A stretch of 64,000 bases of DNA from Luzula sylvatica (Eukaryota > Streptophyta > Magnoliopsida > Poales > Juncaceae): positions 56,566,855 through 56,630,854 of the forward strand of contig OX326960.1 in NCBI GenBank assembly GCA_946800325.1. Reading direction: 5' to 3'. Positions 14,226 to 55,859 of the stretch are shown here, in pieces. The position numbers and the translations under genes were made by a program. Every line of letters begins with the position of its first letter. Position 1 is the first letter of the stretch. The notes beneath the pieces were generated by a model that had not been told where the DNA came from, made no database searches, and saw only the letters and a list, made by a program, of their open reading frames with translations.

Positions 14226-14512
14226 GGAAGTGCCGCCTGAAATTTATTTATTCATGATGTATATAATCATCTATTTTTAATATATTCAAGGTGTGTATAA
14301 TTTTTTTCGGCCGTCTGATTAAGGATTTTGTTGATGTAAATATATTCTTTTATATGCTTTTGTGTGTATCTGACATTCAAATTAATTGCATGATTGCTAA
14401 ACCCCCAAAATTGAAAACTCATTTTATTATTAATATAATATTTTGTGGAATTAGTACCGTGGAATCGGGATTTAAGGTGAAGGAGTAAAAAAAAAATTGT
14501 GGATTTAGTAAT

Positions 14513-15919
14513 TGTTGATTAATTCTAACCTAAAGGGGGGTAAATTTGGCAATCTAACTTACACTTAGTTTAGATTTAAACCTAATTTACGGTGCGGAAT
14601 AAATAATAATTTAGATGATAAAGATGATACCGTACAAACACTTTGACACAAGATGTTTGTTTACGAAGTTCGGTAGGTGGTTGCTTTGTAGCTTTAACTC
14701 ACCCTTTACTCGCTTAATTGACCGACTCAATTATTTGCAAGTACCTACGTCTCCGGGAATGCCTTGTGCCTCTTTTTGGCTTTCGATTGAATTCCAACTC
14801 AACTCGATTACAAGGATTTGCCTAGATCGATTTACACGCTTCTATCGATCTATAGCTTAGGCTCTTTACAATTTGTTGCACTAGCCTATTACATTTTTTC
14901 ACTAATCGAGCTACAACGTGATCGGTCACGTGAGTGGGATACGATTAGTGGAGAATATCGAAAGTAGATCAACGATCTAAAGAGGTTTCTCAAGCTATCA
15001 ATGGATATAGATAATCACAGCTTAGGGTTTCTCTCTTTTTAGGTTTGAATGTTTAAAAATGATGGACTGAGGGAGAGAGACTCATGAAGGATTCTATTTA
15101 TACTCTCTATAGAAATCCTTCAGAAAACTTGAAGTGCGTTCGAACGCATAAAGTCCGTTCAGAACGCACTTGTAGTTTGCACTAGCCGTTTCAAAATAAC
15201 GTGCAAGTACATCTTGGGTCCGTTCGAACGGACAATGTCCGTTCGTAACGGACTCAATTATACATAGCATTTTGCGTTCACAGGAACAAGAGTCCGTTCA
15301 ACGCACTGAAAAGTGGGTGAATGGATTCCAGGTTGTCCGTTCGAACGCACATGTGTTTTCGTTCGAACGCACACATCCCTGTGATATTTTCCGTTCACAG
15401 GAAGGATTGTCCGTTCAACGCACTCAGAAGGTGGGTGAACGGATTCTAATTGTCCGTTCGAACGGACATGATTGTTCGTTCGAACGCACACATCCCTGTG
15501 ACACGTTTGGTTCTAATCAAGGTTTAATAGTTTTGATATGTGGCAAGTCCGTTCTGAACGGACTTTGAGTTCGTTCAGAACGCACTTCCTGCTTGACTGA
15601 ACTCTTTGTTATTTTGAACATGATTTTACTTGAGTTCTACTAGGTTTGTACCTATGGTTTATTTGTGGCGTATCCCACTCACGGAAGGCTTCAACATCTT
15701 GATTCTTGATGTATTCCAATGGCCTTCCTTGTGTTCTTCTTTTCTTGTTTATCTTGAGACTTCATGTCCTGATTCTTGATGTAATCCAATGAAATCCTCC
15801 TTCACAAGTCCTCCTTCATCTTCGTATCGTACCTATGTTATCCTGCACTTTTCTGGATGTATACATTAGTAATGACAGTGTTTTGAAATAATCAAACTAT
15901 CAGGAAATTTGAACCAACA
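14513..15919 (-). repeat. 3' LTR of the gag-only element
   Basis: 1407 bp, ending TG...CA, aligned without gaps to the 5' LTR. It carries five pairs of GTSCGTTCGAACGSAC-like palindromes at about 15134-15585 plus half-copies (GTCCGTTCAACGCAC). Differences from the other LTR include single changes near 14534, 14576, 14703 and 15321-15324. Confidence 0.92.
15134..15585. repeat. Paired 16-bp palindromes (TCGA core), 3' LTR
   Basis: Five pairs start at about 15134, 15218, 15335, 15452 and 15547. Members of a pair are 3-8 bases apart. The type form is GTCCGTTCGAACGGAC; variants exchange G and C at position 3 or its partner, or gain or change a base in the core. The same array is in the 5' LTR at about 21859-22310, and relatives fill the internal spacer at 18059-18600. 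Confidence 0.9.
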
Positions 15920-15933
15920 AACTCCCCCTTTTG
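15920..15933 (-). other. Polypurine tract
   Basis: CAAAAGGGGGAGTT on the minus strand directly abuts the TG of the 3' LTR, the expected priming site for plus-strand DNA synthesis. Confidence 0.85.
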
Positions 15934-16542
15934 ATTAATTTCAAAACACTGTCGGTTTGGAGAGTTTCACCATTTAGTTGAGAACTTTCCGTACGATCGT
16001 TTCTCCCCCATTTTGAAAGAGATCAAAAGGGCCAAGGAGACTTCATCAACGGAAGGCTCCCCCTAAATGCGAGCTCCCTCTCAAAGAATGAATTGATGAA
16101 TGTATGAGCTCGTAAATATGATCACATTCTTTTGTTTTGAATGATGACACTCTTTTCAAATTTAGCAGATTTTAAGGAAAATAAAACAATTTTTGTGTTT
16201 GTGTGTGTTCCGAACGGAAAAAGTGGTGCGTTCGAACGCACTTGCATCTGAACTGATAGGAATTTCACAGAATTTATACTGAAGAGTGCATGAACACTAA
16301 ACCAAAATATGATAATAAAAGAAATGCACAAGTTTATGCTACTGACATACTACCATAATTATTCATCAACCATAATTATTCAATAGACCTAATTGTTCAA
16401 TCATACCGACACACATCAAAGTTTGGATAAGTTCTCACATACTCTCATGTATACTCAAGACTTAGACATAACATAACATAATACGACACAACACACACTA
16501 CAATCAAGGGTGATCACAATTCATTTGGCTCGGGTTAGGTAT

Positions 16543-17871
16543 TTAAGACGGACGGTGGGGAGAAGGTGGAGCTTGCTCCTGAGATTCATGGTGCGTTCCG
16601 AACCGGTTCTCAAGATGAACGTAAAGATCGGCAAATTGTCGATCCACGTTCTCAAGCATCCGTGCTTCAGATACACGAAACACATCATGCATTGCTCTTC
16701 CGTGTCGTTCCATGCGCTCATCCATTTCGTCGAGCATCTCCTTCACATAGGCAAACCTCTTATCATCCCGTTCCGTTTGGGCATTTGAGGATTCCCCCCT
16801 CCCCACATTCCTCTTTCGTTTGGGAGCCGGTTCTTCACCGCTTTCATTGGTATTGGCTGGGTCGACGTTGTCCTCTTCCTCGTCCAAGGTGTTACCCTTC
16901 GTCCACCGGGTAGGATCGCGGGGAAGGTGATACGCCACCGCATCCTTTGCGGAGTCAATAATCCATCCGAGGATGCTTGGCGAATACCGATATCCAAAAC
17001 GTCGGAGGTTTGCATCGGATGCGAGGTTGATTGGTGATTTCGGTCGAAAATCCCAATCGCTCAGTGGTATCTCAATCCCTTGAAGTTCCAACATACGGGC
17101 AATCAAAGTTCCGTATGGTAAGGACGCGTTCTTATGACTCATTACACTTTCCATGTGGCTTGTGATGAGAAAGGGCACGTGGATGGGTAGTTGATCCTTG
17201 TACCACATGCGATGCAAAAGTATAATATCCCGATGTTCGAGATTTATCTTAAATTTTTCTGAGGGAGTGAGAATGTTATTACCGATGGCCCAGATAAACT
17301 GTTCATGGGCGGCCAAGTGAGATGCCCCTTGCCCATGTTTGATACCCGTGATGGCAGCTTCGATTCTCGCCTTGCGAGTGTCGTAGATTTTCTCTCCGTC
17401 GTCCCTGAGTCCGAGCAGAACACTCAAGTTTTTGATAGAGATTTCGACATCTTCACCGAGGATGTATGACGTTACCTTTTCTTTGTCATGGTGGAATTCA
17501 GCGTTTGCGTAAAATAGTCGCGTGATTATATCATACGATTTGTTGTTTAGGCATGCTAGATTTGCGAATCCCCATTGACGTTCGATTTCCTCGACTTTGT
17601 CGAGGAGGTGATGTATGTTTGGCGGAAAATCGCAGTAGTAGCATGGAGCAATTGGTCTCTTGGATACCCATTCATGGAAGAGGATACCAGCCTCCGGAGT
17701 TCGAAACAGATGCTCGTTGTTTGGGTCAGAGAAATCGTATTCACTTTGAATGCGTTATTCAAGAGTAGGCTTCTTGGCCGCTTGCTTCATTCTTCGTCGA
17801 GCGTTCGAACTCTCGCCTACTATCTTCTTCCCCATGGCCTTGGCTTTCGATCTCGAGTTTGAGGCGTCCAT
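16543..17871 (-). pseudogene. Second ORF of the element, plant-transposon-protein type, one stop
   Basis: A 442-codon frame in the sense direction of the element, open except for a TAA at codon 39 (17755-17757). It starts MDASNSRSKAKAMGKK. The body (HLLDKVEEIERQWGFANL; SYDIITRLFYANAEFH; PLSDWDF) resembles the plant-specific family called putative plant transposon protein, whose function is unknown. A basic stretch PAPKRKRN and a coiled-coil-like tail (MLDEMDERMERHGRAM) end it. It replaces pol between gag and the 3' LTR. If translation starts at a later ATG or reads through, most of the protein could still be made; otherwise it is a recent pseudogene. Confidence 0.6.
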
Positions 17872-18058
17872 GGCTATCGTTGAAGATTTTAGTTTTTCTG
17901 AGAGAGAGAGAGTTTTGGAAGAGATACAAGGAAAGAGAATGAAGGGGGGCTAAGTAACTGATGAAATCGTGTCCCTTCAAGTCACGCCGTAAGGGAAAAG
18001 GAACCATCACATCCATTGAAGTCAGTCGGTTGCATGTGGATGAAGAGTTATTACGACG

Positions 18059-18600
18059 AATCCGTTCGAACGCACTTCTATGTGCGTTTGAACGCATTCA
18101 TGTCTGAGAAAAGGCGCTATTTTGGGATTTTAAGTTGTATCTGGGAAGTTGTTAAGTCCGTTCGAACGGACTCCCATGTGCGTTCGAACGCATACACAAC
18201 TGAGAAGAGGCGCCAGAATATGAAACGACTCGAGTGTAAGGGTTTGAAGTAGGTTCGCTGAATGAGGAATGTGCGTTCTAACGCATTAATTGTTCGTTCG
18301 AACGCACTGAACACTGGTGACACTAAGAGTCGGCGCCAAAGTATGAACCGGCGCCATAATCCTATAATTCATTTTTCTGTTCGGAACGCATTCATTTGTA
18401 CGTTCGAACGCACTTGATCCTGGTAGGAAAATTTGATGGCGCCATAATTTAATTGTGACTTTGGATCTTATAGTCCAGTTGTCCGTTTCGAACGTATTTT
18501 AGTCCGTTCGACCGGACTTGAGGCTGTTAAGAGGGTATTTGGTGACTTCATTTGTCCGTTCCAAACGCACATGTTTTTCGTTCGAACGGACTGGTTCCTG
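18059..18600. repeat. Internal spacer array of paired palindromes
   Basis: Between ORF2 and gag, six or seven further pairs of GTCCGTTCGAACGGAC / GTGCGTTCGAACGCAT type occur at about 18059, 18155, 18270, 18378, 18480 and 18555. Intra-pair gaps are 6-12 bases and pairs lie roughly 75-110 bases apart. A further pair is near 16208-16242. Confidence 0.85.
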
Positions 18601-18800
18601 AGATGTGATCACTGGACTGTAATCGTGATTTATTTACCGAGACAAGTGTTCTAATGTAATCCTCTATTAACACTTGTGATGTAGCTACATGAGACTCGAC
18701 CAATTTGGCTAGAATTTAATTTAGCCCATTTCCTATACTCTCCTTACATATTTGGCTTAAGGTGTGGGATACTAAGGAGTATAGTGTTTCAAGTTAGGGC

Positions 18801-21170
18801 TTAAGCCCTAGGAGGTCCTATACCGAAAGACGTAGAGGGACCCATCGAGTGACGATCTTTACGCATCCATATTGAGTTTGATGTTAATTTTGGATTGCGA
18901 AGATCACAACTTGTTGAGACATGACCAATTTTGCAACAATAGTTACAAAATGCTACGGTGGGCTTATTTGTGGGTGTGGTACTCTTCACAAAATAGTCCG
19001 AGAGTTGATTCGGATTACTTCTCTTAGAAGTTATCGATTTTGGCATTTGATAAAAGTTATTTGATTTAAATTTATTTTGCTTAAAATTATTTTGCTTAAA
19101 ATTATTTTGTTTAAATTGTTTATGTGTGTTGGTGAAATGTTTGGGAGGCCCTTGTTGATATGAAGCTTCGGTGTAGTTTGTCACTTCATAGAAATACCCA
19201 TTTGGTCCCCTTTTGAACAAACAATCGGTTCTTCCCAAATTAGTATGTCTAGGTTGTGAATTTTGTGTAAAATGATTTTTCCTATAATTATTATTGACAC
19301 GTTTAGGTTGTTCATTTTTAGCATATTTACCTTTGTTGTAGTCATGGTACATGAAAGCATTTCCATGACTACTTACTTTATTGTTTTCCCATTTAGATTT
19401 TTGATTTTGAGATATTGAAAAATCGGGTTTATTACCGTTATTTTTCTTATATCCTAAACCGGATTTGTCATTTGGCTTTTGTCCTATCAATGACGATCTT
19501 AAAACATCATCCAATGAAGGAGGACTCAATGCAATATTTGCACAAGCCTTCTTCAGGGATTCATTTTCAACTTTAAGAATTTGAATTTCGACTTTTAGAT
19601 GAGAAATCTCACCTTTTATGGTTTGACACTCACACTTTGAAAAACCTTTAAATTCATTTATTTGAGTTTTATATGCCAAAATGGATAGCTCAAGAGAGGC
19701 TACCTTATCCTTGAGAGCTTGTGTTGGGCTCTCAAGTTTACCCTCATTTAGTTGAGAGTTCCCTTCATCTCTAAGAAACTCGTCACAAGATTCGAGTTCT
19801 AGTTCGAATGCGGGAGAAAATTTAGATTTATGTATTGATTCTATGTCAAGCAGAGAGTATGTACGTACCTCATGACATTGGTCATGTGTTGAGCTGGTAT
19901 TGGGAGTGGATGGTTCAGAGTCCACAACCATGGGCGTGTGATGTGTAGTAGTTAGACCTCGTTCAATACGAAGAGATTTGATGGCCGCTTCCACTGCGCT
20001 CATTAGTGGAGGATCTATCCTTACCATGAGTGCAAGGTTTGCGGTGTGTCGACTTGACGGACCATCCGGGTCGGATGATGAGCTTGATCCGTCCGTTTCT
20101 CCCCACCTACAATCGACGTTAGCTTTATATGCCTTTTTCTTATTGATTTCTTTACCTTTGTAGTTTTGACGATTTTCTCGCCCCTTGTCCTCGTATCTTC
20201 TTTCGTATCGGGGCTCTCGCCTTTCCCGATCCTTGTGGTCCTCATCCTTTTTGATCCACCTCGAATTTTCCGGATGGAGAGTCCAACATGACTCCATCAT
20301 GTGTCCAATTTTCTTGCACCAAAAGCAATGGAGCTTTAGCCCCTTTTGTTTCCGATTCTCGTTGAATCGCTTCTCGTCCCTTTGCCACTCTAGGAGTCGC
20401 AACGTGAGATCATCCATTTCATTGTCGTCATTGCTTGCATTCACGGCGGGCAAAGGTACGGTTTTGGAGTGAGGAGAGGGTATGTAGATTCCTTGTTCTT
20501 CATCGAGTTGCTTGAGTCGAATCTTGAAATTTCGGAATTGACTTACCAATTCTTCAGGCGTGAGGTCTTGTGAAGCTACCGCTGTACCTAAAGCTACACG
20601 TAAAGATTCCCAACTACGGGGCATAGATTGAAGTAATCTAGCAATAATTCTATCATCAGTAAGAGGTGTATTTTGGGTGGCATATCGGGTTTTTAGTACA
20701 TTGATTTTTGCCCAGATTTTATCAACGGACTCTCCCTCAATCATTCGAAGATTGTTGAATTCTTGTTCAAGTCCGATGATATTAGTTCTTCTCATTTGAG
20801 ATGTACCCTCGTATCTCTCATTGAGCATACGCCACATTTCATATGAGTTTTCACAATGATCAACTAGCGATCTGATAGAACTAATTACGTTGTTCAGTAT
20901 TAAGTTTTGAGCGTAAATGTCATTAGTTCTATCTTCCCTAGTTTGATCAGGGTAGGTTACATTTCCGTCCGTGTCAACCTCTTGGGCCAAGACAAAGCCT
21001 CGTAACACTACCTTGTCAAGTCCTTGGAGAGCGAATGTATTTAGCATGCATTTCTTCCAAGAACACCAATTGGTTCCATCTAATTCACGTGAGTTTGATA
21101 TATTTGATTTGGGTACGGTATTTATCGGATTTATCGATGAGTTTTGTACAATAGGATTAATTTCGGCCAT
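18801..21170 (-). CDS. gag: Copia-type gag polyprotein, intact
   Basis: 789 residues without a break, starting 54 bp inside the primer site. Residues 30-230 form the gag core (RELDGTNWCSWKKCM; YEMWRMLNERYEGTSQMRR; LLQSMPRSWESLRVAL), which builds virus-like particles. A first zinc knuckle C-X2-C-X4-H-X4-C is at residues 282-295 and a second at 742-755. A coiled-coil-like heptad region lies at about 485-545 (KVEIQILKVENESLKKA), and an Asn/Lys-rich basic region follows. The reading frame ends shortly after the second knuckle, where a full element would go on to protease. Open frame plus young LTRs suggest recent function. Confidence 0.9.
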   Translation of the reverse strand: MAEINPIVQNSSINPINTVPKSNISNSRELDGTNWCSWKKCMLNTFALQGLDKVVLRGFVLAQEVDTDGNVTYPDQTREDRTNDIYAQNLILNNVISSIRSLVDHCENSYEMWRMLNERYEGTSQMRRTNIIGLEQEFNNLRMIEGESVDKIWAKINVLKTRYATQNTPLTDDRIIARLLQSMPRSWESLRVALGTAVASQDLTPEELVSQFRNFKIRLKQLDEEQGIYIPSPHSKTVPLPAVNASNDDNEMDDLTLRLLEWQRDEKRFNENRKQKGLKLHCFWCKKIGHMMESCWTLHPENSRWIKKDEDHKDRERREPRYERRYEDKGRENRQNYKGKEINKKKAYKANVDCRWGETDGSSSSSDPDGPSSRHTANLALMVRIDPPLMSAVEAAIKSLRIERGLTTTHHTPMVVDSEPSTPNTSSTHDQCHEVRTYSLLDIESIHKSKFSPAFELELESCDEFLRDEGNSQLNEGKLESPTQALKDKVASLELSILAYKTQINEFKGFSKCECQTIKGEISHLKVEIQILKVENESLKKACANIALSPPSLDDVLRSSLIGQKPNDKSGLGYKKNNGNKPDFSISQNQKSKWENNKVSSHGNAFMYHDYNKGKYAKNEQPKRVNNNYRKNHFTQNSQPRHTNLGRTDCLFKRGPNGYFYEVTNYTEASYQQGPPKHFTNTHKQFKQNNFKQNNFKQNKFKSNNFYQMPKSITSKRSNPNQLSDYFVKSTTPTNKPTVAFCNYCCKIGHVSTSCDLRNPKLTSNSIWMRKDRHSMGPSTSFGIGPPRA

Positions 21171-21223
21171 TTGATCGTTAAGTACAAGTTATCCCTAATA
21201 CTTAAAGAGATGGTTAGTACCTT

Positions 21224-21235
21224 GCTCTGATACCA
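21224..21235 (-). other. Primer binding site (initiator tRNA-Met)
   Basis: TGGTATCAGAGC on the minus strand, two bases after the 5' LTR end, is the standard plant Copia site matching the 3' end of initiator tRNA-Met. Confidence 0.88.
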
Positions 21236-21237
21236 AT

Positions 21238-22644
21238 TGTTGATTAATTCTAACCTAGAGGGGGGTAAATTTGGCAATCTAACTTACACTTAGTTTAGAT
21301 GTAAACCTAATTTACGGTGCGGAATAAATAATAATTTAGATGATAAAGATGATACCGTACAAACACTTTGACACAAGATGTTTGTTTACGAAGTTCGGTA
21401 GGTGGTTGCTTTGTAGCTTTAACTCAACCTTTACTCGCTTAATTGACCGACTCAATTATTTGCAAGTACCTACGTCTCCGGGAATGCCTTGTGCCTCTTT
21501 TTGGCTTTCGATTGAATTCCAACTCAACTCGATTACAATGATTTGCCTAGATCGATTTACACGCTTCTATCGATCTATAGCTTAGGCTCTTTACAATTTG
21601 TTGCACTAGCCTATTACACTTTTTCACTAATCGAGCTACAACGTGATCGGTCACGTGAGTGGGATACGATTAGTGGAGAATATCGAAAGTAGATCAACGA
21701 TCTAAAGAGGTTTCTCAAGCTATCAATGGATATAGATAATCACAGCTTAGAGTTTCTCTCTTTTTAGGTTTGAATGTTTAAAAATGATGGACTGAGGGAG
21801 AGAGACCCATGAAGGATTCTATTTATACTCTCTATAGAAATCCTTCAGAAAACTTGAAGTGCGTTCGAACGCATAAAGTCCGTTCAGAACGCACTTGTAG
21901 TTTGCACTAGCCGTTTCAAAATAACGTGCAAGTACATCTTGGGTCCGTTCGAACGGACAATGTCCGTTCGTAACGGACTCAATTATACATAGCATTTTGC
22001 GTTCACAGGAACAAGAGTCCGTTCAACGCACTGAAAAGTGGGTGAACAGATTCCAGGTTGTCCGTTCGAACGCACATGTGTTTTCGTTCGAACGAACACA
22101 TCCCTGTGACATTTTCCGTTCACAGGAAGGATTGTCCGTTCAACGCACTCAGAAGGTGGGTGAACGGATTCTAATTGTCCGTTCGAACGGACATGATTGT
22201 TCGTTCGAACGCACACATCCCTGTGACACGTTTGGTTCTAATCAAGGTTTAATAGTTTTGATATGTGGCAAGTCCGTTCTGAACGGACTTTGAGTTCGTT
22301 CAGAACGCACTTCCTGCTTGACTGAACTCTTTGTTATTTTGAACATGATTTTACTTGAGTTCTACTAGGTTTGTACCTATGGTTTATTTGTGGCGTATCC
22401 CACTCACGGAAGGCTTCAACATCTTGATTCTTGATGTATTCCAATGGCCTTCCTTGTGTTCTTCTTTTCTTGTTTATCTTGAGACTTCATGTCCTGATTC
22501 TTGATGTAATCCAATGAAATCCTCCTTCACAAGTCCTCATTCATCTTCGTATCGTACCTATGTTATCCTGCACTTTTATGGATGTATACATTAGTAATGA
22601 CAGTGTTTTGAAATAATCAAACTATCAGGAAATTTGAACCAACA
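21238..22644 (-). repeat. 5' LTR of the gag-only element
   Basis: 1407 bp, begins TGTTGGTTC and ends AATCAACA on the minus strand. It is nearly identical to the 3' LTR. It should hold the promoter; the palindrome array is included. Confidence 0.92.
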
Positions 22645-22649
22645 GTAAT

Positions 22650-23064
22650 TTCAAAATTTGTTCGGATATCCAAATTATAAAATGATGAAAAATATAATTT
22701 TTTGTTTGGTGGTTTACAAAATTCTGGAATTTCGTTATTGAAAATATAAAAATAATATTTCATTAAAACTGATAATTTTTTTTAATATTATTGTAATATT
22801 ATAATATTATTATTATAATAATATTAGTTTGAACAATATATAGTAATAGTATAATATTATATATAATTTTATGAGCTATATATAATATTATATTTAATTA
22901 TATGGATATAATAATTATAATATAATTACTACAAAATATTAAATGGATTTGATATTATTATAATATTATATTTTATCCATATAATACATGATAATATTTT
23001 CTATAATTAATAATCATAAGTATACTGGTCAGACGACAAATAGAGAGGAACATACCAGTTAGTA
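22650..23064. other. Extremely AT-rich spacer
   Basis: ATATTATAATATTATT-like sequence to about 23010, then a 24-bp direct repeat (AGTATACTGGTCAGACGACA..., 23018 and 23061) at the start of the LINE coding remnant. Confidence 0.5.
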
Positions 23065-25800
23065 TACTGGTCAGACGACAAATATCTGCTGAAGCTCCCG
23101 ATAGGATTCGAGAGAGAAAACTTCCTACGATCTAACGCTGAAATACTGAAGAGAGAAGGTTTCGTGTTGTATCCTTGGTGTCTCGCCATGGGGGGTACAT
23201 TTATTTACTATAACCACATAGCATGGTTAGAACTGAAAAACTTACCTCTCCATTCATGGAACCCTAAAGAATTAGAAGAAATCACAAAAGGATTCGGGAT
23301 GCTGCTAGATCATGAGTCACTAGTAAACTTGGAATCCCTGGACTCCATCGCAGTAGTGATTGCATGCCATAATCTGGCAGGGATACCACCGGAAACAGGC
23401 ATGCTAGCCGAAGGTTACGAGAGAAATACCAAGGTACATCCGGTGACGGTCCTTAACGAGCGCCGCCACTTCTTTAGACCACCCAATACGGAGCCCACGA
23501 ACGACGAAATACTGCAAATGTACCTCGACACCCGGGCTGACCCGACAAGCCAAAAGCAAGCGAAATCGGAATCCTCTCAAACCCATCACCGATCAATCGT
23601 TACTGACGACCAACCAAGCGAAACTAAATCACCCAAAGGAAAAGCGTCAACCAAAAAAGATGACTCGGAACTAAAGACGACCAAACAATGGAAGCACAAA
23701 AGGACAAATTAGCACCATGGGTATTCTCAGACAAGCTATCTGACAAGGATGCGGGATTCCTTGAAGAGAAACTCAAATAACTATCGTGCATGGAGCAGGA
23801 AGGAACTCCTCTCAAATCGGTGACCGAAACAATGCTCGACGAAGCCATGACCATGGCTTCCAAGGAAAATCCAAGTAACCCTAACCGTACGAGGGACAAC
23901 AAGACAAGATCGTACAAGCTGACAAGAGAAGGGAAAGAAAACGACTCCTCAACTACCCTGACGCCACAGACGGCAAACCCAGCTAAGCACGTCAGCGGTA
24001 CGATGGACAAAGGGGGAGGCTCGAGATACATGGTCTCGAGAATGAAAGGACAAGAAAGCGACAAGGCATTTATGTCTCTGTCAGAAGAAGCAAGCGTGGG
24101 AGATGAGAACTTGCTGCCACAAAGCCCACGGGCACAAGGTATAGGACTCTCAAAAATTCGAAATACTAAAACCCATTTTAAATTAGGAAAAAATAGGACC
24201 CAAAACTCAGTTAAAAGGCCTAAAATCACAAAATTATTGCAATTCAGCACCCGAAAATCTAGCAGATTACAAAAGAGAATAACATTTCCAGATGGATCGC
24301 AACATGAAAACCCAATTAAAAATACGAGACAACCGAATAAGAAAAAAATAAATGTTAATTTGGCAAAACAATATAGGGGAATTCTTCAAAAACCCCCCGA
24401 CTTTTCTGAAAATTCTGAAAAACCCCCTGTACTTTTAGAAAATCCCCTATCTTTTTTAGATTCTCTCAAAAACCCCCTATATTTTTTGCTTCTTCAAAAA
24501 CCCCCTAACTTTTTTTGATTCTCTCAAAAACCCCCTATTTTTTTATTATGTTTTTAAAAAAATAACCATTATACCCTTTAGTTTTATTTTTTAAATTTCT
24601 ATAATTTAATATATAATGAATATATATTAAACTATTATAAAAAAATTAAAAATAAATAATACAGGATATTATAATATTATAATAAATAATATATAGTATT
24701 AAAATATTATAATAAATAATATTTTGATATTAAAATATCATTTTCAACAATTATTATAATAATTTAATATCAATATATTATTTATTATAATAATTTAATA
24801 TCTATGAATTATTTATTGTAATATTTTAATATCAATAAATAATATATGATACTAAATTATTATAACATTTTTATTGATATTTTAATATGAATAAAATTAT
24901 AAAAAATAAATAATGCATGATATTATATTATTATAACATTTTTATTGATATTTTAATATCAATAAAATTATAAAAAATAAATAATGCATGATATTAAAAT
25001 ATTATAATAAATAATACATATATATTAAATTATTATAATAAATAATATATTGATATTAAAATATTATTATAATTGTTGAAAATGATATTTTAATATCAAT
25101 ATATTATTTATTATATTATTTTAATACTATATATTATTTATTATAATATTATAATATCATGTATTATTTATTTTTAATTTTTTTATAATAGTTTAATATA
25201 AATTCATTATTTATTAAATTATAGAAATTTAAAAAATAAAACTAAAGGGTATAATGGTTATTTTTAAAAAACATAATAAAAAGATAGGGGGTTTTTGAGA
25301 GAATCAAAAAAAGTTAGGGGGTTTTTGAAGAAGCAAAAAATATAGGGGGTTTTTGAGAGAATCTAAAAAAGATAGGGGGTTTTCTAAAAGTAGAGGGGGT
25401 TTTTCAGAATTTTCAGAAAAGTTAGGGGGTTTTTGAAGAATTCCCCAACAATATATAAAAGATCTAGAAAAAGAGGCAAAAGAACCAAAGGGTTTACTAA
25501 TAGAGGAAATAAACTCGATGAGAACAATGTGTGGACTAACAAATAAACCAGAGATGGTAATAAATAAGCCTTAAAATGAATTTTTAGTAGCAACAGAGCC
25601 CACGGGCCGGCCACAATTACTAGAACCAAAACCCACCAAAAAAAAATAATAATAATAGAAGAGGTAGAAAGGCCCCAACAATGTGCCTCAGCCCCAATTA
25701 AAATAGATGCAACACCACGAACAAGCCCAGGCTTGTCAGATCCGGGGGAAATTAAAGTGAAAACTTTGAAGAAAAAAAATATTAATTGGGTCATGTAGCA
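23065..25800 (+). pseudogene. LINE ORF1 remnant (DUF4283 type)
   Basis: The frame opens with YWSDDKYLLKLPIGFERENF and reads on through LYPWCLAMGGTFIYY and WLELKNLPLHSWNPKELEEI, the end of a DUF4283 domain, which binds nucleic acid in plant LINE ORF1 proteins. It stops at 23712, resumes in another frame at about 23790 as a Lys/Ser-rich hydrophilic tail, and is cut by the MITE. Remnants continue after 25456 (KDLEKEAKEPKGLLIEEI). No start codon could be fixed. Confidence 0.7.
24376..25446. mobile_element. Giant-hairpin Mutator-like MITE
   Basis: 1071 bp bordered by exact 9-bp copies of AACAATATA (24367-24375, 25447-25455). Both ends read GGGGAATTCTTCAAAAACCC inward, and the two halves stay complementary for at least about 450 bp each, so nearly the whole element is one inverted repeat. 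The outer arms repeat CAAAAACCCCCTA six or seven times; the inner part is AT-rich. No coding capacity. Confidence 0.88.
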
Positions 25801-26636
25801 TCAGTGCAAACAACCCAAAAAGTTTGAATGCAAGTACAAACATATGTAACTTTCTCTCTCGTACAAAAATTGTAGATGAAAATGAAGAAATAGACCAAGA
25901 AGATAGGTATCTAGACAAAGTCGATTACGAGGAAGAAAGTGAAGGATTTAGGTCGGGAGGGCCCTTCAAGAAATCCCGTTAAGGAAATGTAAGAGCCATT
26001 AGGCTATTTTGATGAATGTTTTGTAATGATGCTACAACTATTTAATGCGCTTTCTATTTTATTTTGGAATGCAAGAGAAAGTGAAAATCCGGACAAATGC
26101 AAACTAATTAAAGATACCACTAGGTCCTCCAAATGTAATATATTTTGCTTACAAGAAACGAAAGCTAATGACATGTCCCTAATTCAAATGAAATCTATAT
26201 GTCCCCCGAATATAATTTTTTTTTGAAAAAATAGATGCCATCCACACGAGAGGAGGCTTAGTGACATCATGGTCCGATAATTTTACACTATTGAAAGTGA
26301 ATAAAGGAAATTATTCACTCCAAACAACCTTAATAGCAAACAATAAATTCACGTTTAAGCTAATAAACGTCTACGGCCCAAACAACCCAAACGAAAAAGA
26401 AGACTTCATAAAAGAATTGGAAGAAACAATGTCGACCGACATACCAGCAATAATCCTTGGGGATTTTAACCTCATAAGAGCAAGAAACGAAACCATGGGA
26501 AATGGTCACCTACCCGAACATATATTAGCATTTGACAATTTCATCGCCACCAAAAACCTAATGGAAATACCGACAAACGAAAGAGCATATACATGGTCAA
26601 GTAAAACGCAAACACCTACCTTTTCAAAGCTAGATA

Positions 26637-27583
26637 TGAAGGAAATATAGTTACAGATCAACTAGTTGAATATACAAATGAGTATGGACAAACATACGTG
26701 TTTGTCGGAACGATTGGATGCATAATAAGATTATGCAAATCTGGCAGAAATTACATGGTGCGTCATGACGCACCATATTGTGCGTCATGACGCACAGTAG
26801 AGTAATTTTGAGAAAGCCAATCTGTGAGTATACCGTCACGACGCACCAAGTTGTGCGTCATGGCGGTGGTGCGTCATGACGGACATTATCCTGCGTCATG
26901 ACGGTACACTGTATAACGGCTATATCCAAGTAAATGTGACTTGTGCGTCATGACGCACCATATCGTGCGTCATGACGGACAGTGATCCGAATTTCGGATT
27001 AGCAGTTTTTGATACTCATTAATACTCATTAATTCAGAGATTTAATATATAATCTCTGTAACCTATCTCTCTCTCTGTTGGATCCAGATCTAATTCTTTG
27101 AGAAAGAAGAAAAGAGAGAACTTGTGAGACAAGTAAAAAGAGATTTGTGATTGAATTTGAGCAAGCTTGTAGTGAATTTTAGGGGAATTCACCGCAACCG
27201 AAAGACGCGAGCTCGAGGTGGATACGGGTAGAGGAATCTCAACTGAGATTCTCTGTTCAGCACGGTTGAGCAAGGTCGGAGACGAACCGGAGAAATTCCG
27301 GTTGTATACGACAAATCGGAACTTTGGACTAGGTGTCAAATCACGCGGGCGTGGGACGCGTGTGTTACCGAGATCAAAGCAAGGACAGCAACTACGCAAG
27401 AACAACCCTTCACCGTGATCAATTTCACGTGGTATGTTTCTATGTATATAAGAGTTATATTCATAGGCTAGTTGCATTTACATGATTCGTACTTTCGGGT
27501 CGTTGACGTGGTCCTCGGGATCGGGTTGGACCGGGCCTCTCAATCCGCTGCGCGGGGCTCGGTAGTGACGCCGATACCCAACA
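26637..27583 (-). mobile_element. Solo LTR with CATG-core palindromes, inside the LINE
   Basis: 947 bp with TG...CA ends between exact AGATA copies (26632-26636, 27584-27588). On the minus strand it starts TGTTGGGTATCGGCG, a common plant LTR start. Removing it and one AGATA restores the LINE reading frame. It has no coding domain. Paired GTGCGTCATGACGCAC palindromes fill 26758-26985. Confidence 0.8.
26758..26985. repeat. Paired 16-bp palindromes (CATG core)
   Basis: GTGCGTCATGACGCAC at 26758 and 26780 form one pair, and a similar pair ends the array near 26942-26980. Between them are four less regular copies (GTCACGACGCAC, GTGCGTCATGGCGG, GTGCGTCATGACGGAC, CTGCGTCATGACGG). Confidence 0.9.
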
Positions 27584-28625
27584 AGATAGAGCTCTCACGA
27601 CAAATCATTTCCTAACGCAAAATACAATTGCAACAATAAAAGAACACACCATGCTAACTTCCGACCATGTACCATTGAAACTCACTTTCTCTACAACCGG
27701 GAGGAAGAGGAAAATTAACCATAAACTCGAAAGATCATGGCTATTATATGAGGAGGCCAAAAAAATATTCATAGATGAATGGATATCGGCGCCACAAAAT
27801 AATAACCCGGCAAAGAAATTTATAACCTCTATATGCAGAACGACAAGAAAGATGGCCGAATGGGCCCAACAAAACTTGAGTAAGATTGATGAAACTCTGG
27901 AAATATGCAAGGAAACGATCAAACTCTTGGATATAATAGAAGAAGCAAGAGCACTAACAAACATAGAACGAGATTTAAGAAGAGAAGTTAAAATCAAAGC
28001 ACAAGCGCTTGCATTACAAGCTGAAACGAAATGGCAACAAAGAAGTTCAAATAAGTGGGTTAAATTGGGAGATAGGAACCACAAATATTTTCATGCACTT
28101 GCAACGGCTAGAAGAAACAAGAACCACATACATCAAATCCAACTTAATCAAAGAGAAATTACATCTCAAGAAGAGATACTAAGTACGTTCTACACCCATT
28201 TCAAGAATACAATGGGGACTAGGGCAAACACAACAACTACGAACCTCGAGTTGCTAATAAGAGAACCACAACAAAACATAGAACTCAATAGTCTAGGAGA
28301 GCCGTTCCAAGAAGAAGAAATAAAAAATGCAATAAACCAAAAAAAGCCACGGGCCCTGATGGAATCCCGGCCGAATACATTAAGGTATTTTGGGACACAT
28401 TGCAACACGATTTCAAACAAATGATAACGAGTTTCCAAGACAACGAACTAGATCTTTGGAGAATTAACCAAGCCAACATCACGTTGGTATCAAAAACGAA
28501 AGGGGCCTCAAGAATAGAAGAATTCCGACCCACAAGTGTGATAAATACCCCGATAAAGATAATAACGAAAATTTTAGCCTCGAGACTAGGACCACAAATG
28601 GAAAATTTAGTAGACAAAAGAATAA

Positions 28626-29326
28626 AATTCTACTTAGCAGCGATTGCTTTTTGTGTACTAAATTAACAAAGTGTTATTGAATCGGCATTGTCTTAAATTC
28701 TACTTGTGGACCCATAAGTGTGATAAAAACATTCGACTACGATCATGTAATACGAAAACGATCAATAAAGAAAATTCTGGCCAAATCAAATTAGATATTG
28801 GATCTTATATTGTTATTGAATTTTGATTCGTGAACCCTGATCATTAGACAGAGATGTAAGCCGAAAAAATCAGTTTGAAGAACTTTTACTGACCTTATAT
28901 TAGTTCAAATATATATTTATATATAATTTAATTGAAACTACATTTTATTTCATTTTAATACTTAATTGGGAACTTGAGCCGGTCTTGTCTTTAGATTCAT
29001 AAAAAATCAATTAATGATAGAAATTTATTATAAGAAAATTAATCATTGTTTTTATGTTGTTTTTGGACATGAATGATCAGAGCCGGCCGCTATTTATAGT
29101 TATAAGAGTGGAAATATTATTAGTGATGGAAACTTCATTATAAAAAAATCCATTGAATTATACAGACATGAAAAGAGTGGAAATGAGCAAAAGGAATAAA
29201 TAAGTCTAGAGAGAGAAACTGTGTATATTAAAAATATGATAAGAGAAATGGTGTGATAACTAAACATGTTGACATAAAATAAGCCAGCCACATCAGCAAG
29301 CAAGAGATAAGGGCTTGAAAGACTAA
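28626..29326. other. Intergenic, nothing recognised
   Basis: AT-rich sequence after the LINE break. No domain, repeat ends or RNA gene could be identified. Confidence 0.4.
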
Positions 29327-29335
29327 TTATATTAT

Positions 29336-29383
29336 GGCAAATTCTACTTCTTCCCCCCCATTTTCCCCCAGATTTAACAATCT

Positions 29384-29420
<37 letters not shown>

Positions 29421-29633
29421 ATGATACTCTCCCCCATTTTGCACCTTCCATTGTATTAGCGATTAATTGTGTTTGGAATTAACGGTTAATATAATTGTAT
29501 TAGTCATCAATATAATTAATAATTTCAATTAACCATCAATTCAAATGGCGGGGTATATCAATCGGGAAATGTATATCATTTCCCCCCAATTGTTAAATCT
29601 GGGGGAAAATGGTGGGGCACGGTAAATGGCCTC
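29336..29633. mobile_element. Mutator-like MITE carrying a G36 tract
   Basis: 298 bp between exact 9-bp copies of TTATATTAT (29327-29335, 29634-29642). Inverted ends share CCCCCATTTTCCCCCAGATT (left about 29354, right 29589-29617 in complement). A run of 36 consecutive G lies at 29384-29419. Confidence 0.82.
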
Positions 29634-31314
29634 TTATATTATTGTACTTAAGAGCCGATACAATAATCCAAACATATCCAATCCTTATGCATCGTCTTAT
29701 TGTTATTGTGATCTGTGAGCACCCAATCAATGTATCAGATCTGAATTCATTATTCAACTCTTGTGTATTCTATATTTTGAATCCAAATCAATAATTCGTG
29801 TCCAAAATCGTTGTTGTTCAACTATATTGTAAATATGCCAATGATTTCATAATCTGAATGATTGAGTAATGAGTATGTCATAGACAGTATCGGATTTATT
29901 AAATGACTAAAGAAGGCAACGTCCCCTCCCCCCACCCCTCACGGCCTCATAGATTTTTTTAACAGTAATACATGTATATGATATGTTACTGTATTTTATA
30001 ATAAAATTGAAAAATTTATTTATGATCGTCCCCAAATTTTTTTTTCGAAACTTCTCATGGTAGCCATCCCTACATTACCATCCCCTCATTAAATACGGGA
30101 CACGATTCGCTACTGGTCATAAGTTGAGTTCAATTCCCGTGTTAAAAAAGAAATCGATTATTGTACTCCACGTGTATGCACTTCAAATACATGTTATCAA
30201 TAAAAGCACTTGAATTTTTCAACTTTGACTACATTTGTACAATTTTGACTGTATTTGTGCACTCCAAACGCACGCCGCAAAAAAATATAAAATATCATAC
30301 AAAATGTATAAATCTAATTCAGTCGTGTAAAAAAAACTTTAATTTAAAAGGTATCATACATACATAAAAATATATTATACATATAAAAGATATAACACAT
30401 ATTTGTATTTAAAAAATGTATATCATACATATAAAATGTACATGCCACATCTAAAAAGATATAAAAAATAAAGATATCATGAGCGTAAAAAAATATAACA
30501 TGTATTGTATTTTAAAAGAAATATATCATACATCTAAAATATATAATATACATCAAAATATATCATGTATCTAAATACGACTTGATGAGAAACGGCGTGT
30601 CTTTGGAATGCGCCGGAATGCACACAATTCGGTCAAACAAACAAAAAACACTGTCACGTGTCGTGCTCCTATTGATATCGTGTCGTGCACAAAGGAATGC
30701 ATATACATGGAGTGCACAATGTTTTCCCTAACAAAAGATTATCACGATTCATGAACTAAATTCTCTTGTTAAAAAAAACTATAATGCAAATAAACCTACT
30801 AAATTTGTTCACACCCAATATTATTGTTTTGTGTCTGATTTAAACTCATAACTGTTCATTTGAAAGATTAAATGACTTATTGCCAGAATAAATTGAGAAT
30901 TATTCATAAGCCCCTTATGTTTTCTCAAATTTTACTGACCCTCCTATTTTTATATGTTCGATGAGTTCCATGTGTCAAATTTGTTAATCGATAACTTCAG
31001 TTAACAGTATGCTTCTTATCACTAATAGTCCCTTAGCCTAGTGGTAAAGTGCTTATCACGAGATACCAAAAAATCAAGGATTCAAATCCCATTGATATCA
31101 TAAATAAAAAAAATAAAACAAACAATATTCATGATTTATGGATTATATTCGACTTAAATCATGTCTAATCACGAGACCATTGGAATCGATAGCCAGGTTT
31201 TGAGAGCAAGCGACCCATTCACTCTCAATTCCCCGGTTCAGTAAAGTCGTTATGGTAGCAAGCATTAAAAAAAGAAAGTATTGGCTTCTATCTCACCCCC
31301 AACTAAAATACCGT
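29634..31314. other. Intergenic with SINE-like pieces
   Basis: Mostly AT-rich with TATCATACATATAAAA-like repeats at 30350-30560. At about 31028-31110 a tRNA-derived SINE-like piece shows TTAGCCTAGTGGTAAAGTG (box A) and GGATTCAAATCCC (box B) followed by an A-rich tail. A box-B-only piece (GAGTTCAATTCCC) is at about 30126. Neither has a clear target duplication. A related 3' half is at 58665-58743. Confidence 0.5.
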
Positions 31315-31925
31315 TGTTTAATTTAGACCTAAATGAGGGTGAATAAGTAATCCTAAGGTCCAATTTTCGCGGTAATGATATACAATTCTAGGTATGTGCG
31401 GAAGCGTAAATAATTTTGAGAAATAAAAACAATCTCAAAACAAATAACAACAAGATATTTGTTTACGGAGTTTGGTGGGTGGTTGTTTTGTAGTTTTAAC
31501 TCACCGCCTACTTGCTCAATCCACCGATTCGATTGATTGCAAGTACATACGTCTCCGGGAATGCCTTGTGCCTTTTCGACTTTCTATTGAATTGCCGAAT
31601 CAATGAGTACAATATTTTGCCTAAATCGATTTAAACGTTTATATCGATCTATGACGAGCTTTACAACGTGTTGAACTAGCCTATTACAAACTACGAACGA
31701 ACTACACATGATCGGTCACGCAAGTTGGGAATCATTGGTAGAAAATGATTCGAATGTAGATCTTAGATCTAGGAAATTGTCTAGAGGAATTGAGCTTAAG
31801 ATCAAGGCTTAGTTTTCTCTCTTTTGAATGTGTGTAGAATAATAGAAGAATCGGAGAGGAAAAACTAGGAGGGGTATTATTTATAGAACACATACTCCCC
31901 TTCTATTTTAGACTTTTTCTGCATG

Positions 31926-32290
31926 GTCCATTACAACGGAAGTAATTGTCCGTTGTAACGGAACCAAAGTCAAACTAGTTGTTGGGACAAATATATTCGA
32001 AATTCTGATGCTCCGTTGCAACGGAAGAGAGCTCCGTTGTAACGGACAATCAGTGCAAATGGTCCGTTACAACGGACGAGTTATGTCCGTTGTAACGGAC
32101 CAAGTTATGTAATTTACTTGGTTTTGTTCATGTAGTTCCGTCGTAACTGTAAATAGTCCGTTACAACGGATTTGGTGGCTCCGTTACAAGGGGTTGGTGA
32201 TTCCGTTGTAACGGACAATATGGGATGGCAAAACCAAATGGAAGGTACAAGTAGTTTCTTTACAACTGAGGAATGGTCCGTTGTAACGTA
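31926..32290. repeat. Paired 16-bp near-palindromes (TGTA/TACA core)
   Basis: Five pairs of TCCGTTACAACGGA / TCCGTTGTAACGGA at about 31926, 32010, 32060, 32137 and 32181, then one single copy at 32277. The two forms are reverse complements, and in most pairs one of each is present, so a pair can fold as one longer hairpin. Confidence 0.88.
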
Positions 32291-32481
32291 AGCTTCACTG
32301 GTTGCCTATTTTGCAATTCATCCATTTTGATTGTTTCGAATATATTTATTTGTTAAACTTCAGTTTAATAATTCAAAAACAAGTCTAGGGATAGCTACGA
32401 GTTATTTCGGTGCTTGTGTGATATTTCAACTTGCGAAAATCTTCGATGTCTTGATTTATTCACTTGATCGAGCACTCCCGT

Positions 32482-33350
32482 TAGGGGTGTACACAAAATT
32501 CTCCAACCCGCCCAATCCGACCCGGACCAACCCGTTTTTGTGGATTTCGAAATTGTTGGATCGGGATCCGGACCGACTCGGTTTTTGCGGGTCGGGTTGC
32601 GAAATTGAAATTAAAAATCCGGATTAACCCAACCCGACCCATAGACTATCAAATTTCGAATTAATTAGGAAAAAATTATTCATATCTCTAATAACTTAGA
32701 AATTTAATTATCACATTCATCATCTACATTAGTTTAATATAAATTAGACTTAGTTTTCCTTCACTTCGATTAATAATCCACTAAGATACAACCACAACTC
32801 TACTAAATTATTTACCACAAGTCCAGAACATTACTCAATAATCAATAACATGATGAAACCATTTCTTTTATTTCCATCACGCGGTAAGCATATAAAGTTG
32901 CAATAAACAAACCAACAACATAAAATTTCTTCATGGAACATAAATTTAGGAATTCCAGTTTACTTAATTAATGTTGTATTATATGATTCAAGTATAAGTG
33001 GTACAATCGAATTATGTGCTTGTTATATTATATGGTTTAATTTAATTAAAATTTGTTTTTCAATTGTGATTCATGTGTTTGTTAAAATAATTTTGATGTT
33101 TTAATAAAAAAAAATATAGTTCTTATTGAATAGTTTTTTTTTGTTACATGTGAATAATTGAATACATATCTCTATAGTATATAATCTGCAAAAAAAACCC
33201 AGCTAACCCGTCCAACCCGGTTATGTTGGGTTTCAAAAATTTTATAAGTTTCCTGGGTTGGGTTGGGTTGGAAAAATGAAAACTCGTTCTAAATGGGTTG
33301 GGTTATAATTTCGATAAGAACCCGTCCAACCCAGTCTACGTACACCCCTA
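32482..33350. mobile_element. hAT-type MITE with AACCCG subterminal repeats
   Basis: 869 bp, ends TAGGGGTGTAC / GTACACCCCTA, bordered by ACTCCCGT (32474-32481) and ACTCTCGT (33351-33358), 7 of 8 identical. Subterminal zones are built of CCCGACCCAACCCG-like words facing GGGTTGGGTTGG. The core is AT-rich. Confidence 0.82.
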
Positions 33351-39800: not shown

Positions 39801-40037
39801 CATGGTACGAGCTGACTGAGCCCGACTCATGGCAAATTGTACCGAGACACTAAACAAGTCTCGGTCTGAGCTAATCGGGTTCGATGCTGCCGACGCAAGT
39901 GCTGATTCGCATGCCTTTGGATACAATGTGGTCTCGCAAATGGAACTAACAAGTGTATCAGCTGAGACATCAATTGCAACATTGGTTAGTATCAGTACAG
40001 TGCATATTGCGACGAGTGTTTTCTTTTGTTGCATCAT
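36836..40037 (-). CDS. Type-I pectin methylesterase with inhibitor-like pro-region (PME1)
   Basis: Secreted cell-wall enzyme that removes methyl esters from pectin. 534 residues from exons 40037-39624, 39330-38820 and 37515-36836 (minus strand), in frame throughout. Signal peptide MMQQKKTLVAICTVLILTNV. The pro-domain has the inhibitor cysteines (ICETTLYPKAC, MDDCLELL, VTCSES). RRLL processing sites occur twice (NRRLLSAN, DRRLLEAS). The catalytic domain has all five family motifs: GTYSE, QAVAL, QDTL, DFIFG and YLGRPW, so the active-site Gln, Asp, Arg and Trp are kept. Intron 2 carries a hAT-type MITE. It ends VSYTSGL. First of three PME copies on this strand. Confidence 0.95.
37870..38420. mobile_element. 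hAT-type MITE with GCCTAGGC repeats in PME1 intron 2
   Basis: 551 bp between exact TCTAAGAG copies (37862-37869, 38421-38428). Ends CATTGTTCTAAAAATCG and, in complement, CAATGTTACAGAAATCG. The left subterminal zone repeats CGCCTAGGCCCG; the right has TAGGCGCTAGACGG and GACTAGCGCCTAGCG. Confidence 0.88.
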
Positions 40038-40357
40038 GTGGTAAGTGAAAATATATTCTGTGATATCAGAAACTTATCGATTATATTCTTTAGTTGTTTT
40101 GCTCGATATAGTATTTGAAATATTTATTAATTCTCTTGATTAGAGAATTAATATGAGAGAGAGATTGAGATGTGAGGAGAGAACGAATGCATGGGGGTTT
40201 AATAAGCGAGAGAGATTGAGATGTTTATGCATGGATTGGATGCACGTCTAAGTCATGTTTAATTAGTGCAAGAGTCGATTTCGCTGGACCAAAAGCCAAA
40301 AGCATTTCTCAGTACAGAAAAACCAACTCGACGAATATTCATATGAAAAAGAAGAAA

Positions 40358-55805: not shown

Positions 55806-55859
55806 GGTTTTCAGTTTAGAGTGATTTGGAGTGTGAGGTAGTTTGCTTTAATAACATAT

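Follow-up and report, generated by a model that had tools for sequence, protein, structure and literature searches.

Arrays of a 16-bp palindromic box at near-helical spacing in gypsy and copia-type LTR retrotransposons of Luzula sylvatica

A 64,000-bp stretch of the Luzula sylvatica genome (assembly GCA_946800325.1, contig OX326960.1, positions 56,566,855 to 56,630,854, forward strand; hereafter the window) contains three types of long terminal repeat (LTR) that carry arrays of one 16-bp palindrome, GTSCGTNNNNACGSAC, which we call the box. These are the two LTRs of a Sirevirus-type retrotransposon, element A, and two further LTRs, B and C. The boxes have near-constant arms and cores specific to each array, stand mostly whole turns of the DNA helix apart, and recur in both Ty3/gypsy and copia-type elements. 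In our best reading the arrays are probably enhancers, with dimers binding cooperatively to sites that share one face of the helix.

Fifteen exact matches to GTSCGTNNNNACGSAC lie within the window, and a genome-wide search (445,347,901 bp in 37 contigs) returned 26,330 exact matches vs. 5 for the reversed control, far above chance. For the box with a TCGA core the exact count was 4,630, vs. 0 for the reversed pattern. With up to two arm mismatches allowed, the window yielded 37 boxes: 35 in arrays, a single box at 16226, and a stray one at 20091, inside the gag of element A. Twenty first-order Markov sequences of the window gave a mean of 0 exact boxes and of 1.65 boxes with at most two mismatches (maximum 4). 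An initial annotation of the window had named hits no more common than base composition predicts as an outcome that would tell against it, and this is not what the counts show; the array coordinates and three core types it had reported were recovered by exact and relaxed box searches. Five 10-kb stretches of contig 5, chosen regardless of hits, contained no boxes.

Core classes were counted in 676 boxes from the window and 45 further loci, representing 158 distinct flank contexts. Loci L009–L023 were picked among the first matches of the genome-wide GTSCGTNNNNACGSAC search, L029–L038 among the GTSCGTNNNNACGSAC and TCGA-core matches listed, and L039–L058 are 20 of 50 places with box pairs; L024–L028 were placed regardless of hits, and nearly all fetched loci are on contig 1. 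The search fixed the arms (at most two mismatches) and left the cores free, so that the constancy of the arms is the weaker evidence. The initial annotation described the arms as always GTSCGT/ACGSAC around a 4-bp core. Near-constant arms and array-specific cores are borne out, but the arms are not always exact, varying most at positions 1/16 and 3/14, and the array at 15134–15585 also contains 3- or 5-bp cores. Palindromy extends beyond the 6-bp arms. In 92 distinct contexts the outer two core positions are complementary to each other in 91%, where 61% would be expected, and the box is thus two abutting inverted 8-bp half-sites.

Three core classes account for most boxes: 149 are TCGA, 365 TRYA and 111 CRYG, with 51 having other cores. 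The corresponding half-sites are approximately GAACG(G/C/A)AC, YAACGGA(C/A) and YGACGSAC. Among arrays with at least four boxes, 70 of 71 belong to a single class when other-core boxes are ignored, a count that includes copies of one family; the only mixed array, in L049, has 8 TRYA, 1 TCGA and 3 other boxes. Within a box, the two half-sites vary independently in two of the three classes. Where both S positions are C or G, they are palindromic in 55 of 72 TRYA contexts (57.0 expected), 17 of 31 CRYG contexts (15.5 expected) and 8 of 12 TCGA contexts (6.2 expected). A smaller set of 67 contexts gave similar results, the slight TCGA excess appearing only in the larger set. At the TRYA centre, the dinucleotide was AC/GT in 49, AT in 21 and GC in 8 of 78 distinct contexts from all loci; the AC/GT excess means that the two half-sites differ, C standing in one where T stands in the other, and may reflect an asymmetry of a bound dimer. 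We presume some likeness, useful as leads only, of YAACGG to MYB sites, of TGACG to TGA/bZIP sites, and of CGG-CCG to LBD sites.

The same arms occur in Ty3/gypsy elements and in copia-like groups that lack the Sirevirus signatures we tested. Locus L009 is a Ty3/gypsy element, with Retrotrans_gag, RVT_1, RNaseH and rve matches in one open frame of 1,797 codons (searched in three pieces) and a protease match just below the cut-off. Its 1571-bp LTRs are 99.94% identical, and its boxes, of which the LTR holds 12 and the stretch from pol to the 3′ LTR another 13, are all but one TRYA. With boxes masked, its spacers matched no other arrays (E 1e-3). Its gypsy sequence is matched by L043, L045 and L058, three among 20 further loci, with best pieces at 79–90%, so the box-bearing gypsy element is not a single chimera. 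A second group is defined by LTR C and its two-LTR relative L023, whose LTRs are 963 bp long and 100% identical. In L023 the polypurine tract (PPT) reads GTGGGAGAC-TGAAGG and the junction with the primer-binding site (PBS) reads CA-GTGG-TATCAGAGC; neither the Sirevirus PPT AGGGGGAG nor the CA-ATTGG (or AGTGG) PBS junction is present, and by those two features L023 is not a Sirevirus. Relatives of LTR C carry further arrays about 250 bp after the PBS, as do the members of group D (L011, L013, L020 and L022). Group D is called copia from gag matches downstream of its arrays (Pfam on pieces of L018 and L021), and group C copia-like only from its PBS and a short leader similarity to D. By lineage, C and D may be Tork-like and the gypsy element Athila/Tat-like.

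LTR B is related to the LTR of element A, with 78.9% identity over 327 bp, and parts of it match L010. Three copies of AGGGGGAG occur in L010; L014 and L018 also have three each, and L016 has four, one of them in its coding part. By reference match, the last 20 loci comprise 10 of the Sirevirus-type L010/B, 5 D leaders, 3 gypsy and 2 LTR C, and are therefore new copies of known groups rather than new groups. One locus, L012 (G000:C1:517501-527500), contains a 4.7-kb stretch repeated at a distance of 5,159 bp with 99.98% identity, cut by the locus end. It has C-type LTRs, TCGA/TGGA boxes and PF20167-like pieces, and looks like a tandem retroelement.

Core class is not fixed within a group. All three classes occur among the A-related LTRs (A, B and L015), two each in C and D, and one in the gypsy element. 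The case we rely on is LTR B and its homolog L015, whose array flanks are 73% and 77% identical, with spacers at 52% and boxes at 73%. All nine boxes of LTR B are TRYA, and those of L015 are CRYG (10 of 15) or mixed (5 of 15). Conserved flanks around unlike spacers and a different class indicate array turnover and class change within one LTR lineage. The Sirevirus status of L015 derives solely from LTR homology, no PPT or PBS having been found in it. A similar switch of cores between homologous leader arrays of C and D, suspected from their grouping, was dropped when alignment gave only short matches.

The arrays also have a characteristic spacing. As the initial annotation had noted, copies are mostly paired: a pitch of about 22 bp occurs in all three window families, and 1,656 exact GTCCGTN4ACGGAC pairs with a free gap of 1–31 bp were found genome-wide (control: 0). 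Among the 50 plus-strand pairs listed of these 1,656, which have 27 distinct spacers, the pitch was 20, 21, 22, 23 and 33 bp in 4, 17, 26, 2 and 1 cases, respectively. Gaps of 28–130 bp, measured on the fetched loci, are sharpest at 52, 62–64, 73–75, 84, 94–95 and 104–106 bp, approximately multiples of 10.5. To remove shared descent, gaps with spacers at least 60–80% identical were merged. Shuffled spacers are 56% identical on average (95th percentile 62.5%, maximum 67%), so the 60% threshold, which lies below the 95th percentile (0.625), merges unrelated gaps as well. In the first set, 184 pairs reduced to 22, 50, 70 and 87 contexts, with R(10.5) of 0.65, 0.64, 0.56 and 0.57; the phase offset was 0.0 to −0.2 bp, the best period 10.7–10.9, and none of 3,000 jittered sets was as high.

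This result was replicated on 20 new loci, with 10.5 bp and phase 0 set beforehand. Of the 119 pairs, 106, 76 and 43 resembled the first set at thresholds of 0.65, 0.70 and 0.80 and were removed; V was 0.505, 0.519 and 0.557 for 9, 19 and 42 contexts, and 75, 1 and 0 of 10,000 nulls were as high; pairs kept at 0.80 may still be distant relatives of the first set. When both sets were pooled by group, V was 0.62 for gypsy (13 contexts), 0.60 for D (12), 0.58 for C (16), 0.66 for B (19) and 0.42 for A (14). Nulls as high numbered 0, 3 and 2 of 5,000 for gypsy, D and C, and 0 for B. The 50–54-bp spacers of different groups mostly look unrelated.

Tandem duplication of a 22-bp unit was rejected as the sole source of the spacing, since gaps of 52, 73–75 and 94–95 bp are not multiples of 22; the many unlike spacers also speak against it. 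They likewise rule out duplication of one ancestral pair per family, which the initial annotation had named as a possible simple origin. Local duplication does contribute in part, with a 117-bp unit in the 1407-bp LTR of A and homologous units within D and C arrays. Heat-shock elements in the spacers were also considered and dropped: TTCNNGAA occurred twice in array spacers vs. 0.58 expected, within the shuffled range (maximum 4), and is not enriched. When boxes were masked, the spacers from 23 groups of arrays contained GGCGCC four times (0.06 expected) and TTCTGG/CCAGAA six times (0.69 expected), and either may be a further motif.

The position of the arrays gives clues to function. Element A (14513–22644, minus strand) has LTRs of 1407 bp at 14513–15919 (3′) and 21238–22644 (5′), defined by LTR alignment and a target-site duplication (TSD), GTAAT, at 14508–14512 and 22645–22649; they are 99.08% identical. 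The TCGA-class array of the 3′ LTR (15134–15585, minus strand) consists of 12 boxes with cores of 3–5 bp, and the corresponding array of the 5′ LTR (21859–22310, minus strand) includes five boxes with a 4-bp core and at most two mismatches. A TATA motif at 15096–15102 (minus strand; LTR position 818) follows the last box of the 3′ LTR array (box end 786) by 31 bp. Element A has additional boxes beyond those in the initial annotation: a second TCGA-class array of 10 boxes (18060–18591, minus strand) upstream of an open reading frame (ORF) in envelope position, and the single box (16226–16241, minus strand) between that frame and the 3′ LTR. In LTR B (31315–32487, minus strand, 5′ end approximate) a TRYA-class array of nine boxes with TGTA, TACA and TGCA cores (31926–32291, minus strand) precedes a TATA motif at 31879–31885 by 40 bp. 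In LTR C (26637–27583, plus strand) six CATG boxes of the CRYG class (26758–26980, plus strand) precede a TATA motif at 27046–27052 by 65 bp. All three TATA motifs are on the element's own strand.

We propose that the arrays act as cis-regulatory (enhancer) parts of LTR retrotransposons. The 16-bp box, as two inverted 8-bp half-sites (G/Y)RACGSAC, would be recognised in its double-stranded form, either by a protein dimer or by a single protein binding twice. Boxes would lie mostly on one helix face, about two turns apart within a pair and whole turns apart between pairs, so that bound dimers could touch one another or together reach the transcription machinery assembled on the TATA box 31–65 bp downstream (A, B and C). 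Boxes before the envelope-position ORF may drive an internal transcript. The three classes (approximately GAACGSAC, YAACGGAC and YGACGSAC) would correspond to the specificities of related or competing factors, with conversion of the whole array when an element changes factor. Near whole-turn spacing, dyad symmetry that reaches the centre, the independent variation of the half-sites in two classes, and proximity to TATA all fit an enhancer of cooperative dimers. Of the three suggestions in the initial annotation, a dimeric DNA-binding protein fits best, given the helical phasing and the lack of half-site covariation in two classes. Protein binding, cooperativity, activation and a host origin of the factor are proposed from the sequence pattern.

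Several observations weigh against this proposal. Phasing is imperfect: gaps near 31 bp form a doublet (29–30 and 33) rather than a peak, those near 42 bp are broad, off-phase steps such as 45, 68, 80 and 98 bp are present, and the A group is the weakest (37 of 5,000 nulls as high). The relation to TATA does not hold everywhere, as the gypsy LTR array lies in the 3′ part with the sole TATAWAW upstream of it, and TATAWAW is absent from 17701–18650, the region of the envelope-upstream array in element A. If transcription starts in the LTR, the leader arrays of C and D would lie inside the transcript. Finally, positions 3/14 pair in 0.60 of contexts with classes pooled, vs. 0.49 expected, and in the TCGA class, counting all letters, they agree in 13 of 27 contexts vs. 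8.5 expected, so that the two half-sites may covary there.

The TCGA agreement and the transcribed leaders would be expected if boxes were selected, or punished, as transcript hairpins that give rise to double-stranded RNA, small interfering RNAs and methylation, as proposed for maize Sirevirus palindromes, whose clusters in LTRs are reported to be small-RNA hotspots (PMC5311732, PMC10760457). Our arrays fold far better than shuffled sequences (z = −12.5 for A, −10.5 for C and −11.0 for B), and since pairing is possible between any two boxes, covariation within a box is not strictly needed. However, positions 3/14 do not covary in TRYA and CRYG, the symmetry extends to the 2-bp centre, which an RNA loop cannot use, and hairpins do not predict near whole-turn spacing of unlike spacers. 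The RNA hairpin suggested in the initial annotation is thus consistent with the folding, but a bound dimer fits better, and we consider selection on RNA structure rather unlikely. Small-RNA production from strongly folding arrays may nevertheless be a cost to the element. Rotational setting of nucleosomes, or a CpG/methylation pattern, would require no specific factor; phasing at 10 bp is also a nucleosome property, and the arrays are CpG-rich (observed/expected 1.36–1.61 vs. 1.06 for the window). Yet 625 of the 676 boxes fall into three classes despite free cores, and a 16-bp specificity exceeds what rotational setting needs, making this explanation very improbable.

There are two further alternatives. 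A retrotransposon protein might bind its own motif arrays to counter silencing, in the manner of VANC proteins of VANDAL elements, with box classes co-evolving. The motifs targeted by VANC are short and have been amplified in tandem, and each of several related VANC proteins acts on its own set of transposable elements (PMC5735166); the class difference between homologous LTRs and the class purity of arrays fit such co-evolution. A binder encoded by the element fits poorly, though, with sharing of the same class between gypsy and copia-type elements. No shared protein was seen with the queries run, which included integrase (INT) and reverse transcriptase (RT) and to which the search for one was confined, and L023 carries arrays with no ORF of at least 180 aa and no match to the queries used. 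We regard an element-encoded factor as unlikely. A functionless history, in which each family's arrays arose by neutral tandem duplication and gene conversion, would account for the 117-bp unit of A and the homologous units inside D and C arrays, and conversion would also be expected to keep arrays pure in class. It does not account for spacers of equal length that differ in sequence both between groups and inside them, for gaps of 52, 73–75 or 94–95 bp where a 22-bp unit gives multiples of 22, or for arms that persist where spacers have turned over (B vs. L015). Some of the copy number can be put down to neutral amplification, but not the spacing, and as a full explanation it is quite improbable. 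A cooperative-dimer enhancer remains our preferred reading.

Element A itself is a pol-less, Sirevirus-type copia element with most published Sirevirus signatures. The LTR/PBS junction CA-ATTGG-TATCAGAGC matches exactly (PBS at 21224–21232, minus strand). The terminal PPT AGGGGGAG (15922–15929, minus strand) is an exact octamer followed by TT-TG instead of the published AT-TG, and with a second copy at 16057–16064 there are two, against a published mean of four. A 23–24-bp inverted repeat, GACAGTGTTTTGAAAT(T)AATCAAA, borders the PPT and recurs inside the 3′ LTR (read by eye), and a C-rich signal, CCCCCC, ends 22 bp from the LTR end; both are Sirevirus features, as are the long LTR (1407 bp) and the large copia gag. 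The latter is an open frame of 795 codons, stop to stop (18801–21188, minus strand; PF14223 Retrotran_gag_2, E 2.4e-20). The envelope-position frame (16543–17754, minus strand, stop to stop) matches PF20167 (E 1.2e-12); some Sireviruses have an envelope-like gene, to which this frame may correspond. About 1 kb separates the gag end (18801) from the start of the PF20167 frame (17754), and this is occupied by the box array. Copia pol (protease, INT, RT and RNase H) is absent, in that INT and RT queries from L016 match nothing inside the element; two related copies, L016 and L019, do carry INT and RT. The layout of element A recurs in L014, with LTRs 98.0% identical and no INT or RT match, and since the pol-less layout is common to both, an element of gag plus PF20167 may multiply as a family. 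A 112-aa open frame (17759–18097, minus strand) just before the PF20167 frame starts inside the array, so that boxes are read as peptide (MRSNAHRSAFERI...).

LTR C is a true solo LTR of 947 bp, as initially annotated, with the TSD AGATA on both sides. It seems to be inserted into the ORFs at 26216–26650 and 27507–28666, which flank it and which we take to resemble LINE endonuclease/RT. LTR B, also annotated as solo, has one defined end and is a candidate solo LTR at most, since near 32487 it runs into what appears, by eye, to be another repeat. Elsewhere in the window, a 1,071-bp inverted repeat (24376–25446), 92% self-complementary over its length, has an AT-rich interior and is bounded by tandem units of 30 bp, which gives it the look of a large foldback element. 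On the minus strand, 36836–40073 and 53210–55847 hold fragments of genes resembling pectin methylesterase, recognised from translations only.

The initial annotation knew of no described module of this form, but Bousios et al. reported palindromic boxes in the LTRs of Sireviruses in 2010 (PMC2829016). These repeated motifs (RM) were described in 13 of 21 Sireviruses, in the upper LTR just before the TATA box and a second time before the envelope gene, with at least eight copies per element and mostly an element-specific sequence, and they lie in predicted CpG islands (PMC2829016). Element A agrees with this in its palindromic boxes, their number (12 + 10) and their placement before TATA (31 bp) and before the envelope-position frame, as well as in the PBS junction, PPT octamer, inverted repeat and LTR size. 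The differences are in sequence and distribution. The published core order is CGG-CCG in 12 of 13 RMs, whereas here it is CCG-CGG (GTCCGT..ACGGAC) or lacks CGG altogether (GTGCGT..ACGCAC), so that the published signature is not found. RMs were reported absent from classic copia, and the elements compared were all Ty1/copia with no gypsy, whereas our boxes occur in gypsy L009, L043, L045 and L058 and in the C and D groups; we found no mention of helical spacing in the parts of that paper available to us (PMC2829016).

The palindrome hotspot of maize Sireviruses is likewise a palindrome-rich, fast-evolving cis region of the LTR with strong predicted folding, but small RNAs have been mapped there and its motif, CACCGGACNNNGTCCGGTG, differs (PMC5311732, PMC10760457). 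VANC targets resemble our arrays as short motif arrays in noncoding parts of plant transposable elements, with fast turnover and differing specificities; they belong to VANDAL elements with an element-encoded binder (PMC5735166), whereas the binder proposed for the boxes would be a host factor. No report of helical spacing or of sharing of such boxes across superfamilies was found in the literature searched, although a 2016 study of maize Sireviruses may overlap. The general kind of array is thus known; as far as this literature goes, its spread to gypsy elements and to copia-like groups in which the Sirevirus signatures looked for are missing, its half-site classes with switching of whole arrays, and its helical phase are apparently new. 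Repeated short activator boxes also occur in the U3 of the copia elements Tnt1 and Tto1; their sequence differs from that of the boxes here, and we know of no sharing of them across superfamilies.

It is possible, and we suggest it tentatively, that unrelated superfamilies converged on, or exchanged, phased docking arrays for the same dimeric factor, and that the core classes record switches of whole arrays in factor specificity; the genome would then preserve the traces of an arms race, or of elements competing for a single host regulator. If a single host factor is involved, several distinct groups of retrotransposons would be relying on it simultaneously, and the class switches would reveal how an element passes from one regulator to another. 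The phasing and the half-site common to gypsy and copia make this accessible to biochemistry, since the 8-bp half-site is defined and comes in three versions, the geometry of cooperative binding is predicted, and one genome supplies 26,330 exact natural copies of the box.

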